The position numbers and the translations under genes are program-made. A DNA stretch of 64,000 nucleotides, from IMG/VR virus record IMGVR_UViG_3300035698_007246, positions 126,001 through 190,000 of that record, one strand, 5' to 3'. Below, piece by piece: positions 204 through 10,658 of this stretch (position 1 is its first letter; each line of letters opens with the position of its first letter). Source of the DNA: a virus. The notes under the pieces are model-generated. The model did not search any database. It saw only the letters and a list, made by a program, of their open reading frames with translations, and was not told the origin of the DNA.

Positions 204-539
204 CTATCCTATTATAAAATCTGGAGGATTAAGTATCCTCATTATTTCCATTATTCGTTTTTCTCGTTTTTCAGCACACTCACGAGTTTTAGTGATATCA
301 ATCACAACTCCTGAAACAGAATACTGAGCTAAAGATAAACACACTTGTTTTTTTATTCTTACAAGACATAACCTATTTGTTATACCTTGATGTTTAAATC
401 TAAATTCTTCAGTGTCTTTATAAGTCTCATCAATGAAATGTTGTACCCAATTAATCTCAAGGTCTGTATACATATTTATATTTTGTAACCACTCAAGACA
501 ATATTTAATTGAAATGTTTTTATCCAATCCATTCTCCAA
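204..539 (-). CDS. Hypothetical protein, 111 aa
   Basis: No family recognised. The protein has a hydrophobic core and a charged helical stretch near its C-terminus (ECAEKREKRIMEIMRIL). Its ATG lies inside the last codons of the DUF488-like gene upstream (20-bp overlap), which indicates translational coupling. Confidence 0.55.
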   Translation of the reverse strand: MENGLDKNISIKYCLEWLQNINMYTDLEINWVQHFIDETYKDTEEFRFKHQGITNRLCLVRIKKQVCLSLAQYSVSGVVIDITKTRECAEKREKRIMEIMRILNPPDFIIG

Positions 540-855
540 TTTCTATATCCAATTCAACTTTAAACCAACTTGATACAAGATAACGATGACAAAATTGCCC
601 TGTTTCCCAACATGTTATGATTGCATCTTCACCCAATTCATCATACACTGTTTGAGCATTTAATTTGCTCAGAACTTTCTTGTAATATTGTTCTACGTAG
701 TAGTCAACATCACCGTCTTGTTTGTATAATTTAAAAAACCAGTACTTTGGTGCCAGTTTTTTGTATTCTCTTCCTTTAAACCATACAGGTGCTCGCCCTG
801 CAATGGAAACTACATTAGGATGATTTCTTACTTTATCAAAGTAGGAGGTATACAA
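520..855 (-). CDS. DUF488 family protein
   Basis: A 111-residue protein with the DUF488 signature: SIAGRAPVWFKG near residue 17, KLAPKYWFF, then a CWETGQFCHR segment near residue 84 (the usual CxE...FCHR core). The family is widespread in bacteria and phages and its biochemical role is unsettled. No ATG is available. The frame opens with TTG just after an in-frame TGA, and an AGAGG sequence 8 nt upstream supports TTG as start. The start lies inside the preceding UGA-interrupted gene. Confidence 0.75.
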   Translation of the reverse strand: MYTSYFDKVRNHPNVVSIAGRAPVWFKGREYKKLAPKYWFFKLYKQDGDVDYYVEQYYKKVLSKLNAQTVYDELGEDAIITCWETGQFCHRYLVSSWFKVELDIEIGEWIG

Positions 856-1016
856 TCAACAATCCTCTCTCTTGACACTTCACCATTCTCATCGGTATGT
901 CTTTTGAAATTAATCTCACTTACCGCTGTTATATTTATGAAAGAAACTCTTTCAGAGTCAACACTTCATGTAGCTTCACTTCTATACACACCTGGTGTTG
1001 GTATTATTTTTGGCAT
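828..1016 (-). CDS. Small protein with in-frame UGA at codon 17
   Basis: An ATG opens 16 codons (MPKIIPTPGVYRSEAT), then TGA at 966-968, then 45 more in-frame codons of protein-like composition (SVDSERVSFINITAVSE...) to TAA. The ATG lies just inside the end of the preceding gene. If UGA were read as Trp the product would be 62 residues. It may be a nonsense-mutated gene or a recoding case; a second example lies at 3092-3265. Confidence 0.5.
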
Positions 1017-1017
1017 A

Positions 1018-1191
1018 TTATAATTCCACCATATCACCTTGTTTTGTTCTGAATCCACAAATGCATTCAAATACCAATTTCTTTTTTGGTAATACCATGA
1101 TTGCTTTTTGCTTTTGATTACAAACATCACAAGTTTTTATTGTCCTTTTACCACGATTTTCTATCGCATTCTTTGAGCCTTTTTTAGCCAT
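1018..1191 (-). CDS. Small zinc-ribbon-like basic protein, 57 aa
   Basis: Starts MAKKGSKNAIENRGKR, with CDVC near residue 21 and CIC near residue 43, a two-knuckle zinc-ribbon spacing with a basic N-terminus. AAAGGA precedes the ATG by about 7 nt. The ATG overlaps the upstream gene's stop (TAATG), so translation is coupled. The family is not recognised; nucleic-acid binding is only an inference from basic character plus paired cysteines. Confidence 0.6.
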   Translation of the reverse strand: MAKKGSKNAIENRGKRTIKTCDVCNQKQKAIMVLPKKKLVFECICGFRTKQGDMVEL

Positions 1192-1454
1192 TACAATATT
1201 CCTTTCAATGATATATTATAAAATTCTATTGAAATCATTTGTTCAGATTGAAATTCAAAAAATGTAACTTCAATTCCTAATGATGACAATTCTTTTATTG
1301 ATTCAAATAAATCTTCATAATCTATTTGTATTTGTCCAGATGTTGGATATGTTTCCTCAACATATTCCTTTACAGATATATCAAAATCTGATATTTCATC
1401 ACATTGCTCTGTAAAATATTTTATTTTTTTTAATACGGTATCATAAAATACCAT
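1191..1454 (-). CDS. Hypothetical acidic protein, 87 aa
   Basis: An acidic protein (YVEETYPTSGQIQIDYEDLFE) with no recognised domain. It overlaps its downstream neighbour by a TAATG stop-start junction, which supports both being real genes of one operon. Confidence 0.5.
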   Translation of the reverse strand: MVFYDTVLKKIKYFTEQCDEISDFDISVKEYVEETYPTSGQIQIDYEDLFESIKELSSLGIEVTFFEFQSEQMISIEFYNISLKGIL

Positions 1455-1477
1455 GTGACATCCTTGGGTAATGATAA

Positions 1478-1981
1478 CTAATTGAAAGTTATATAATTTG
1501 TTTTGGCATACACATTACGATAAACTGGAATCCCTTTGAAATATCCAAAACGTTGTAATTTTTCAAATTTTAAAACTTCTTCACATAGTTTTTCACAATC
1601 ATGAACAAATTCTTCACAATTTTGAACAAAACTTTCATCAATAGAATTTTTAAGATTAGAACCAACCAACATCACACACACAAGAGGACTTGTAATAATA
1701 CCCTCTGTGTTTTCATTAATATTGTTTTTAATTAAAGTAACTAATGATACACAAAATGGAAATGGATTGTCAATAAATATCCCAAATGTTTTTTGGTCAC
1801 TCAAATCACTCGATAATTTTAACTCTTCACATAATTCTTTTTCATTAATGGTAACACCATTAGCATGATACATTTCAGATTTACAGTCATCACAAACAAC
1901 ATCAATTATGACTTTATCTCCCGGACATTCACATTGTTCACAAATTTTACCACATATAGTACAGATATTTTTATAGTGCAT
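1478..1981 (-). CDS. Cys-rich N-terminal zinc-finger protein, 167 aa
   Basis: The first 35 residues contain CTIC, CEQCEC and CDDC groups that could bind one or two zinc ions. The remainder contains a hydrophobic segment (CVSLVTLIKNNINE) and a Cys-containing helical stretch. Family not recognised. The start overlaps the end of the next gene upstream by about 11 bp. Confidence 0.55.
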   Translation of the reverse strand: MHYKNICTICGKICEQCECPGDKVIIDVVCDDCKSEMYHANGVTINEKELCEELKLSSDLSDQKTFGIFIDNPFPFCVSLVTLIKNNINENTEGIITSPLVCVMLVGSNLKNSIDESFVQNCEEFVHDCEKLCEEVLKFEKLQRFGYFKGIPVYRNVYAKTNYITFN

Positions 1982-2381
1982 TACCTTCTTCCTCGTCTAA
2001 AAATTCTTTTACAGATTTATCAATATTTCGTTCTACTGAAATATAAGGTGAATATATTATTCCTGAGTCTTCAATTTGTTCCCCTTTATATCCCGTTTTA
2101 ATATTATCATTTGGATGTGTAGGAATAACTTCAGGCAAATCAGCACCTTCGAATTGAGGGGGAACATCACCAGTAGTATCCCAATCGCCACCATCTTCAC
2201 ATACTTGAAGTCTTGCACCATCAATAAGTTCTTTTACATTACTAAAATTAATCATTTTGTAAAATTTAGGATTCTCTTTTACTTTATCATATCGAGTTTT
2301 CTTTTTCTTAGGTCTCTTTTTATAGAACACCGTAAGTAAAGTTGTGAATAATAATATTAATAATCCGATTAAATTTTTCAT
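1971..2381 (-). CDS. Membrane-anchored protein, 136 aa
   Basis: The N-terminal helix MKNLIGLLILLFTTLLTVFY is a single membrane anchor followed by a strongly basic stretch (KKRPKKKKTRYDK). This predicts one membrane segment with a large acidic domain in the cytoplasm. The ATGA junction with the upstream gene couples translation. Two neighbouring genes upstream share the anchor-plus-basic layout, suggesting a set of membrane accessory proteins. Function unknown. Confidence 0.55.
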   Translation of the reverse strand: MKNLIGLLILLFTTLLTVFYKKRPKKKKTRYDKVKENPKFYKMINFSNVKELIDGARLQVCEDGGDWDTTGDVPPQFEGADLPEVIPTHPNDNIKTGYKGEQIEDSGIIYSPYISVERNIDKSVKEFLDEEEGNAL

Positions 2382-2647
2382 TTTTCCGCCTGATATTTTA
2401 CTTCGTTAATCTCATCATGTATAAGTTCAAATAAATCAACGTTATATCCTATACATTCTTCATCACTCATTTCTCTACCATATATTTTAGCAAAATTAGT
2501 TGATATTTCTTTCATGTGTTTATTTATATCATTTGAAAACTTTTGTTTTATTTTATCATTTTCAGATAATTTTTTTGGTGTTCTGTTAAAAATAATTACT
2601 AATGACATCGTTGTTAAAGCAATCATTATACCAATGATATGTTTCAT
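2378..2647 (-). CDS. Membrane-anchored protein, 89 aa
   Basis: Residues 1-20 (MKHIIGIMIALTTMSLVIIF) form a membrane anchor, followed by basic residues and a charged helical domain. The stop codon is TGA within an ATGA overlap. No family recognised. Confidence 0.5.
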   Translation of the reverse strand: MKHIIGIMIALTTMSLVIIFNRTPKKLSENDKIKQKFSNDINKHMKEISTNFAKIYGREMSDEECIGYNVDLFELIHDEINEVKYQAEK

Positions 2648-2651
2648 TTGT

Positions 2652-3095
2652 TTAATTCTTCCATAAATAATTCATTGCCGTATTAATATCCGCAAAACAT
2701 TCTTTACAATCATAGTCTTTATCGTTCGGTTCTCTATTAGTACATCCTTTAGAACCACCACACCCTTTAAAATCTGGGTCATATAATTTAGACATATTTT
2801 CAATACTTTGCAATACATCCTTAACATCATTCGTATATTTATATTTATCAGACCCAGAACCAATCATCCCAAATTTCCCTTTCAATATTTGTAAATCATT
2901 AAGAGATACACTACAATCGTCACATTTCTTTAATGATTGTGAATCAGGAGCAAACCAAAAGTCTTCAACTTTTTCAACAACAGATTCCTTATTAGATTTC
3001 TTTTTATGAAAATAATGATATATCAATCCTATCACAAATCTAAGAAGACCAAAGCCAACAATTATATAAGCGGCATTCCATTTTTTCTTTTTCAT
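2652..3095 (-). CDS. Membrane-anchored Cys-rich protein, 147 aa
   Basis: After a short basic start there is one membrane segment (about residues 8-27), then a soluble domain with paired cysteines (CDDC near residue 59, a GCGGSKGC group near 112 and CKEC near 131). A metal or disulfide site is likely. The ATG overlaps the stop of the UGA-interrupted gene upstream (ATGA). Function not recognised. Confidence 0.5.
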   Translation of the reverse strand: MKKKKWNAAYIIVGFGLLRFVIGLIYHYFHKKKSNKESVVEKVEDFWFAPDSQSLKKCDDCSVSLNDLQILKGKFGMIGSGSDKYKYTNDVKDVLQSIENMSKLYDPDFKGCGGSKGCTNREPNDKDYDCKECFADINTAMNYLWKN

Positions 3096-3265
3096 TTCAA
3101 CTTCTCCTCACATGTACTACATATACGCCAAATAACCTTTGGGTTTGAAGAACTTCATCTTGTCCCCATCATTAAATCACCACATTCTTTACAAACTATA
3201 GATTCACAATATGATGGAGGGTTACTCGCATAATACTTTTTTTGTCCTTCTGTATGCTCTTCCAT
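3092..3265 (-). CDS. Zinc-ribbon protein with in-frame UGA at codon 37
   Basis: A GGAG sequence precedes the ATG. Codons 1-36 contain CKEC near residue 25; TGA lies at 3155-3157; the same frame then continues 20 codons (SSSNPKVIWRICSTCEEKLK) containing the second CxxC pair and ends at the ATGA junction with the next gene. The two halves of a zinc ribbon thus sit on either side of the UGA, which argues that both are needed. Recoding, readthrough or a recent nonsense mutation are all possible. Confidence 0.55.
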
Positions 3266-7469: not shown

Positions 7470-7485
7470 AATATCTCCAATAAAA

Positions 7486-7559
7486 TACACCTGCCCGGTC
7501 TCGAACCGGATTATATGGATTTAGGGTCCATCGTTTTACCAAACCTAAACTACAAGTGC
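7486..7559 (-). tRNA. tRNA with apparent amber anticodon (CTA)
   Basis: A clear class I cloverleaf: acceptor GCACTTG/CAGGTGT, D stem GTTT/AAAC, 5-bp anticodon stem ATGGA/TCCAT, T loop TTCGAGA, discriminator A, no CCA. The seven-base anticodon loop is CCCTAAA. In the standard register position 33 is C instead of T and the anticodon is CTA, which would read UAG. Several genes here end in TAG, including the polymerase. The unusual base 33 leaves decoding uncertain. Confidence 0.6.
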
Positions 7560-7565
7560 AAATAA

Positions 7566-9215: not shown

Positions 9216-9289
9216 TGGCAAGTCGTGCAGGATTCGAACCCACATCGGAAGGGTTGGAGCCAACTGTTTTCCCATTAAACTAACGACCT
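9216..9289 (-). tRNA. tRNA-Trp(CCA)
   Basis: Acceptor AGGTCGT/ACGACTT, discriminator G, CCA encoded, anticodon loop CTCCAAC. The anticodon stem has two U-U mismatches, which is weak for a functional tRNA. Confidence 0.75.
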
Positions 9290-10575: not shown

Positions 10576-10658
10576 TGGTAGTGTAGGTGGGAGTTGAACC
10601 CACATTCTCAACACCAATTACGATTCTCCACCTTATCAGAGTGGGTCGGTACTACACT
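10576..10658 (-). tRNA. Aberrant tRNA, Ile(GAT)-type loop
   Basis: Acceptor AGTGTAG/CTACACT, T arm and encoded CCA are normal. The anticodon arm CCACT-CTGATAA-GGTGG follows the acceptor after only TACCGAC, so there is no D arm. A ~24-nt region after the anticodon arm carries CGTAATTGGTGTTGAG; its TTGGT can pair with ACCGA of the linker. A second gene at 21211-21294 shares this layout. Confidence 0.6.

Follow-up and report, generated by a model that had tools for sequence, protein, structure and literature searches.

The two UGA codons that interrupt two small genes of a T4-like phage are, in our view, rather likely to be nonsense mutations in accessory genes of a virus that uses the standard genetic code. 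We looked at a window of 64,000 nucleotides, positions 126001-190000 of a 223,879-bp IMG/VR virus record, together with the other stretches of the same record, which were analyzed piecewise (L003-L011). The record belongs to a large virus that infects bacteria and its DNA polymerase is T4-like. Independent nonsense mutations, which the sequence-only reading had named as the alternative to decoding of UGA, give the best fit because other small genes and gene relics of this phage carry in-frame stops of another kind (TAA) or at another residue (TGA at a conserved Arg).

Two small frames that run on past a UGA

Both TGAs lie exactly where the sequence-only reading had placed them and in the codons it gave, and the frames stay open for the 45 and 20 codons it had counted (Table 1). 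It had also described both frames as continuing to a natural stop, which is correct for ORF1, closed by TAA; the closing stop of ORF2 is itself a TGA in an ATGA overlap, so that UGA serves as a stop in the very gene that it interrupts.

Table 1. Position of the two interrupted frames, their neighbors and the related features of the record. Positions without a label are those of the window.
Feature	Position	Strand	Description
DUF488-like gene	520-855	(-)	TTG start overlapped by the end of ORF1
ORF1, read through UGA	828-1016	(-)	16 codons, TGA, 45 codons, TAA
In-frame TGA of ORF1	966-968	(-)	context ACA TGA AGT
Upstream neighbor of ORF1	1018-1191	(-)	CxxC protein MAKKGSKN...
Gene after ORF2	2652-3095	(-)	147 aa; start within the terminal ATGA of ORF2
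ORF2, read through UGA	3092-3265	(-)	57-aa CxxC...CxxC zinc-finger-like protein; SD-led start
Terminal TGA of ORF2	3092-3094	(-)	overlaps the ATG of the next gene as ATGA
In-frame TGA of ORF2	3155-3157	(-)	context AGA TGA AGT; 36 codons before, 20 after
tRNA-Trp, anticodon CCA	9216-9289	(-)	U.U mismatches at anticodon-stem pairs 28-42 and 29-41; no other Trp tRNA found
Duplicated gene, one copy	L008:13786-13968		TAA vs intact, 58% identical tandem paralogue (SEARE*FRK / SEAREMFRN)
Tandem-repeat protein	L009:1421-1816		TGA in second of two repeats; frame runs on to the WRK[RK]L end that both repeats have; repeats aligned at E 4e-11
Homing-endonuclease relic	L010:3643-3846		TGA at conserved Arg of LIRIPY
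Small membrane-protein frame	L010:3883-4113		TGA; best score with Trp (weak profile match); possible separate start at an ATG two codons on

The UGA of ORF2 lies between the two CxxC pairs, as had been noticed from the sequence. When the frame is joined across the UGA, the protein matches phrog_5130 over residues 28-56 with an E value of 0.001, a weak match in absolute terms to a profile that acts as a generic zinc finger at loose thresholds, and neither half alone gives a match to it. We scored different residues at the UGA position against PHROG 5130: Trp gave 20.0 bits and Tyr 15.9, and C, R, S, G, K and L gave 13.2-14.0. Going by this comparison, the UGA occupies a column of PHROG 5130 at which Trp is favored by about 6 bits. 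For ORF2 alone could the stop thus be placed on a sense-codon position, that of the preferred Trp in PHROG 5130. The chance of a stop followed by at least 20 codons with the score of ORF2 is P = 0.02, and about 5 such cases are expected, so the case of ORF2 stands on its homology and its length is unremarkable.

ORF1 reads MPKIIPTPGVYRSEAT-UGA-SVDSERVSFINITAVSEINFKRHTDENGEVSRERIVDCIPPTLIK, ending at its stop, and its start is preceded by a Shine-Dalgarno-like motif. Coding potential was measured with a codon-usage score trained on the long genes of the phage, and on both sides of both TGAs the reading frame itself has a positive score, with negative ones for the two remaining frames of that strand. 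The part of ORF1 past the TGA scores 4.4 bits over its 45 codons. In a chance model built from the uncovered sequence of the phage, a stop followed by at least 45 open codons with the score of ORF1 has P = 0.0005 per stop, or about 0.1 cases expected over the 231 uncovered stops that were tested. From this value, the downstream part of ORF1 is probably coding or was formerly coding.

Another option is that ORF1 was never one gene and that it consists of a 16-codon peptide and the untranslated leader of the DUF488-like gene, open by chance. No homologue of ORF1 was found and its codon score is modest, there is no in-frame ATG past the UGA, and the segment contains the Shine-Dalgarno-like AGAGAGG and the TTG start of the DUF488-like gene. 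The chance value given above, for 45 open codons with such a score, and the motif at the start of ORF1 speak against this option, as does the relative G003, in which the frame upstream of the DUF488 gene is also open past a stop, with a sequence similarity that is faint and was judged by eye. We regard a purely accidental frame as somewhat unlikely. The DUF488-like gene itself has a 74% identical homologue in G003 (L081:1802-2104), which is adjoined by a cytosine-methyltransferase-like gene with its pieces in different frames (L081:1217-1762). As a separate observation, the first 14 residues of ORF1 (MPKIIPTPGVYRSE; window 969-1016, minus strand) resemble the N-terminus of the sheath-like protein of the phage (MPRVFNTPGVYRRE; L005:8361), with 64% identity.

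Homologues of ORF1 and ORF2 were searched for in viral contigs, genome contigs, a phage collection and the records of relatives, and none was found; an apparent match in an Arthrobacter phage was rejected since it falls within an annotated gene but in a different reading frame. PHROG 5130 was likewise sought in 35 other virus records and found in none of them. AlphaFold single-sequence models (pLDDT 70 and 66) and, for ORF2, a Foldseek search gave nothing usable. No second lesion is seen in either frame.

Both UGAs are directly followed by AGT, exactly as reported before. A shared TGA-AGT recoding signal was considered and rejected: the other in-frame TGAs that have homology or a coding signal behind them precede TAC, GTC and ATT, none of them AGT. 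In G003 the frame upstream of the DUF488 gene has TAA-AGT, which we judged to be a coincidence, and the AGT common to the two UGAs is probably a coincidence as well.

The genetic code and the Trp tRNA of the phage

The phage uses the standard genetic code. TGA terminates 50 of its 342 genes, 30 of them in an overlap with the next gene and 20 without any overlap; in the window the count is 8 of 85. The earlier view that terminal TGA is rare and mostly found in ATGA overlaps is therefore partly right. TGG is in use 807 times over the record. No tRNA with a UCA anticodon, which had been proposed as the thing to look for, was found by ARAGORN in the window and all other stretches or by Rfam in most of them, L003-L009 included. 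In the genome-wide scan no frame of at least 150 codons runs on past a TGA and the internal TGA candidates are only a handful, all in small genes; the DNA polymerase and other long genes can be aligned with their relatives over the whole length at ~70% identity. Taken together, the 50 terminal TGAs with that of ORF2 among them, the failure to find a UCA tRNA and the lack of long frames past a TGA do not support UGA as a general Trp codon.

A genome-wide reassignment of UGA to Trp (NCBI code 4) can draw on the Trp preference at one UGA, that of ORF2. Under code 4 one expects UGA to be absent as a terminator, in-frame UGAs at conserved Trp positions in many genes, long ones included, and a UCA-anticodon tRNA. 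Here UGA ends 50 genes, 807 TGG codons are in use, the internal candidates are few and small, and no such tRNA is among those found; the terminal TGAs already refute the reassignment, which we consider practically negligible. The suggestion that UGA is read as Trp thus has support in so far as the UGA of ORF2 falls on a Trp-preferring PHROG 5130 column, and is not supported for a general Trp codon. For programmed readthrough, which had been suggested as well, nothing positive was found.

The single tRNA-Trp deserves attention due to its anticodon stem. In an alignment by eye with five other phage tRNA-Trp genes, the pair of mismatches at 28-42 and 29-41 is particular to this phage; the tRNA-Trp of Acibel004 appears to have one mismatch, at 28-42. 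The Hirsh-type base A24 is shared across the phage tRNA-Trp set, also as judged by eye, and so is not special here. Overexpression in E. coli of a tRNA-Trp(CCA) in which the top stem pair is opened, leaving a 4-bp anticodon stem, was shown to raise UGA readthrough by a factor of about 2.5 (PMC13092985). The phage tRNA is like it in its CCA anticodon and in an anticodon stem that departs from the usual one. Yet its mismatches are internal, its top pair 27-43 is an intact G-C where that of the published tRNA is unpaired, and the phage keeps UGA as a stop; the stem is also not of the Blastocrithidia-like 4-bp type (27-43 unpaired, 7-nt loop). Because the top pair is intact, we treat the mismatches as a lead and not as evidence of readthrough, and they may equally well have damaged the tRNA.

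Two other tRNAs of the window were recorded. One (7485-7560, minus strand) has a CUA anticodon, is called tRNA-Pyl by ARAGORN, scores 48.9 bits in Rfam and is amber-suppressor-like; despite it, TAG still terminates 43 of the 342 genes. The other (10579-10658, minus strand) was missed by ARAGORN and matches the Rfam tRNA model with 34.7 bits; it has a GAU anticodon, an almost absent D-arm and, before the T-arm, a 21-nt insertion. The D-loop-like motif TAATTGGT lies within this insertion, as if the order of the arms had changed.

In-frame stops elsewhere in the record

Other in-frame stops were found by a genome-wide scan and a search for paralogues; shadow ORFs overwhelmed an unfiltered tblastn scan for stops, whose results were set aside. 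The cases in L008, L009 and L010 (Table 1) indicate that nonsense codons, some of them UAA and some UGA away from Trp, occur singly in small genes and relics of this phage. In particular, the TGA at the Arg of LIRIPY means that TGA nonsense occurs also at positions other than Trp. Among the in-frame stops that are backed by homology or by a repeat, the ratio is 3 TGA : 1 TAA : 0 TAG, and it becomes 5 TGA : 1 TAA : 0 TAG with ORF1 and the L010 membrane-protein gene added. Single-base mutation from the codon usage of the phage predicts about 25% TGA among stops; by a hand binomial the excess has a probability of 0.05 or 0.005, both values being post hoc and from a small sample. Such an excess fits either a better tolerance of the leaky UGA or a partial decoding of it. 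Only two of the UGAs could be tested with a profile, those of ORF2 and L010:3883-4113, and both prefer Trp, the second weakly.

Short homing-endonuclease relics with LIRIPY are scattered through the record (L007:19568-19672, L009:9139-9243, L009:16380-16451 and L010:3643-3846). Outside the window, the terminase large-subunit gene at L005:4297-8282 looks fractured: its N-part runs into intein-like sequence and stops, a zinc-finger nuclease-like ORF follows, and the rest of the intein and of the terminase may be encoded in further ORFs.

Nonsense mutation, readthrough or error

How, then, could the two UGAs have come about? If they are nonsense mutations, the event in ORF2 was most likely a change of a Trp codon, UGG to UGA. 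Ribosomes would then mostly stop after residue 36 and leave a zinc-binding protein without its second CxxC, presumably with a loss of function, and a few ribosomes misreading UGA as Trp could still make some full-length protein. The same kind of event probably took place in ORF1. Basal leakiness of UGA toward Trp possibly softens the nonsense and may explain why UGA alleles are tolerated. This account is favored by the use of UGA as an ordinary stop, by the other nonsense-bearing small genes and relics and by the disrupted methyltransferase gene of G003. The excess of TGA, the Trp preference at the two UGAs tested by profile, and the lack of a second lesion and of any homologue found count against it. 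In-frame stops are over-represented in phage and mobilome genes and UGA is leaky, being read as Trp (Belinky et al., 2021; PMC7918605); our cases resemble those genes in that one stop interrupts a frame that is intact apart from it, in the phage context and in having as their stop the UGA that is known to leak as Trp.

An alternative is a functional readthrough of UGA as Trp, by the tRNA-Trp(CCA) of the phage or by the tRNA-Trp of the host, in which a few UGAs are tolerated or set a low expression. The Trp preference in ORF2 and, weakly, in L010:3883-4113, the TGA excess, the U.U mismatches that the five compared tRNAs do not have as a pair, and the E. coli effect of an altered-stem tRNA-Trp(CCA) (PMC13092985) all point in this direction. 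Against it, the published effect comes from an unpaired 27-43 and internal mismatches may do no more than impair the tRNA, A24 is common, UGA terminates 50 genes including ORF2, and the TGA at Arg in a relic tells that plain nonsense occurs too; we find such readthrough unlikely. A narrower version seems to us doubtful indeed: the phage's own weakened-stem tRNA-Trp(CCA) would partly decode UGA as Trp during infection, and rare UGA-Trp codons would be tolerated or used in small accessory genes while 50 genes are still ended by UGA. In phage Qbeta, readthrough of the coat UGA by the near-cognate tRNA-Trp gives the A1 protein with its C-terminal extension. The likeness lies in a UGA within a phage gene, a near-cognate tRNA-Trp and an extension at the C-terminus. 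In Qbeta, however, it is the short form that serves as the main coat protein, and the phage also needs the extension, whereas the short product of ORF2 is without half of the zinc ligands and that of ORF1 has 16 residues.

The UGAs might also stem from the metagenomic record itself, through an error in its consensus or assembly or through a minority allele, with TGA standing where the population has TGG, for which single-base changes suffice. A contig of 6,003 bp (L015) matches the window without a difference along its full length, though away from the UGA sites, and a search for the exact flanking sequences of the sites turned up no second copy of them. The in-frame stops differ in kind and are confined to small genes and relics instead of being spread over long genes, which argues against errors, and we hold them to be very unlikely.

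If the two UGAs are nonsense alleles, as we prefer to read them, lone in-frame stops in small phage genes would be no sign of a change in the genetic code. If it is true that the tRNA-Trp of this phage raises UGA readthrough, it would offer phages a route to a dual use of UGA without a suppressor anticodon.
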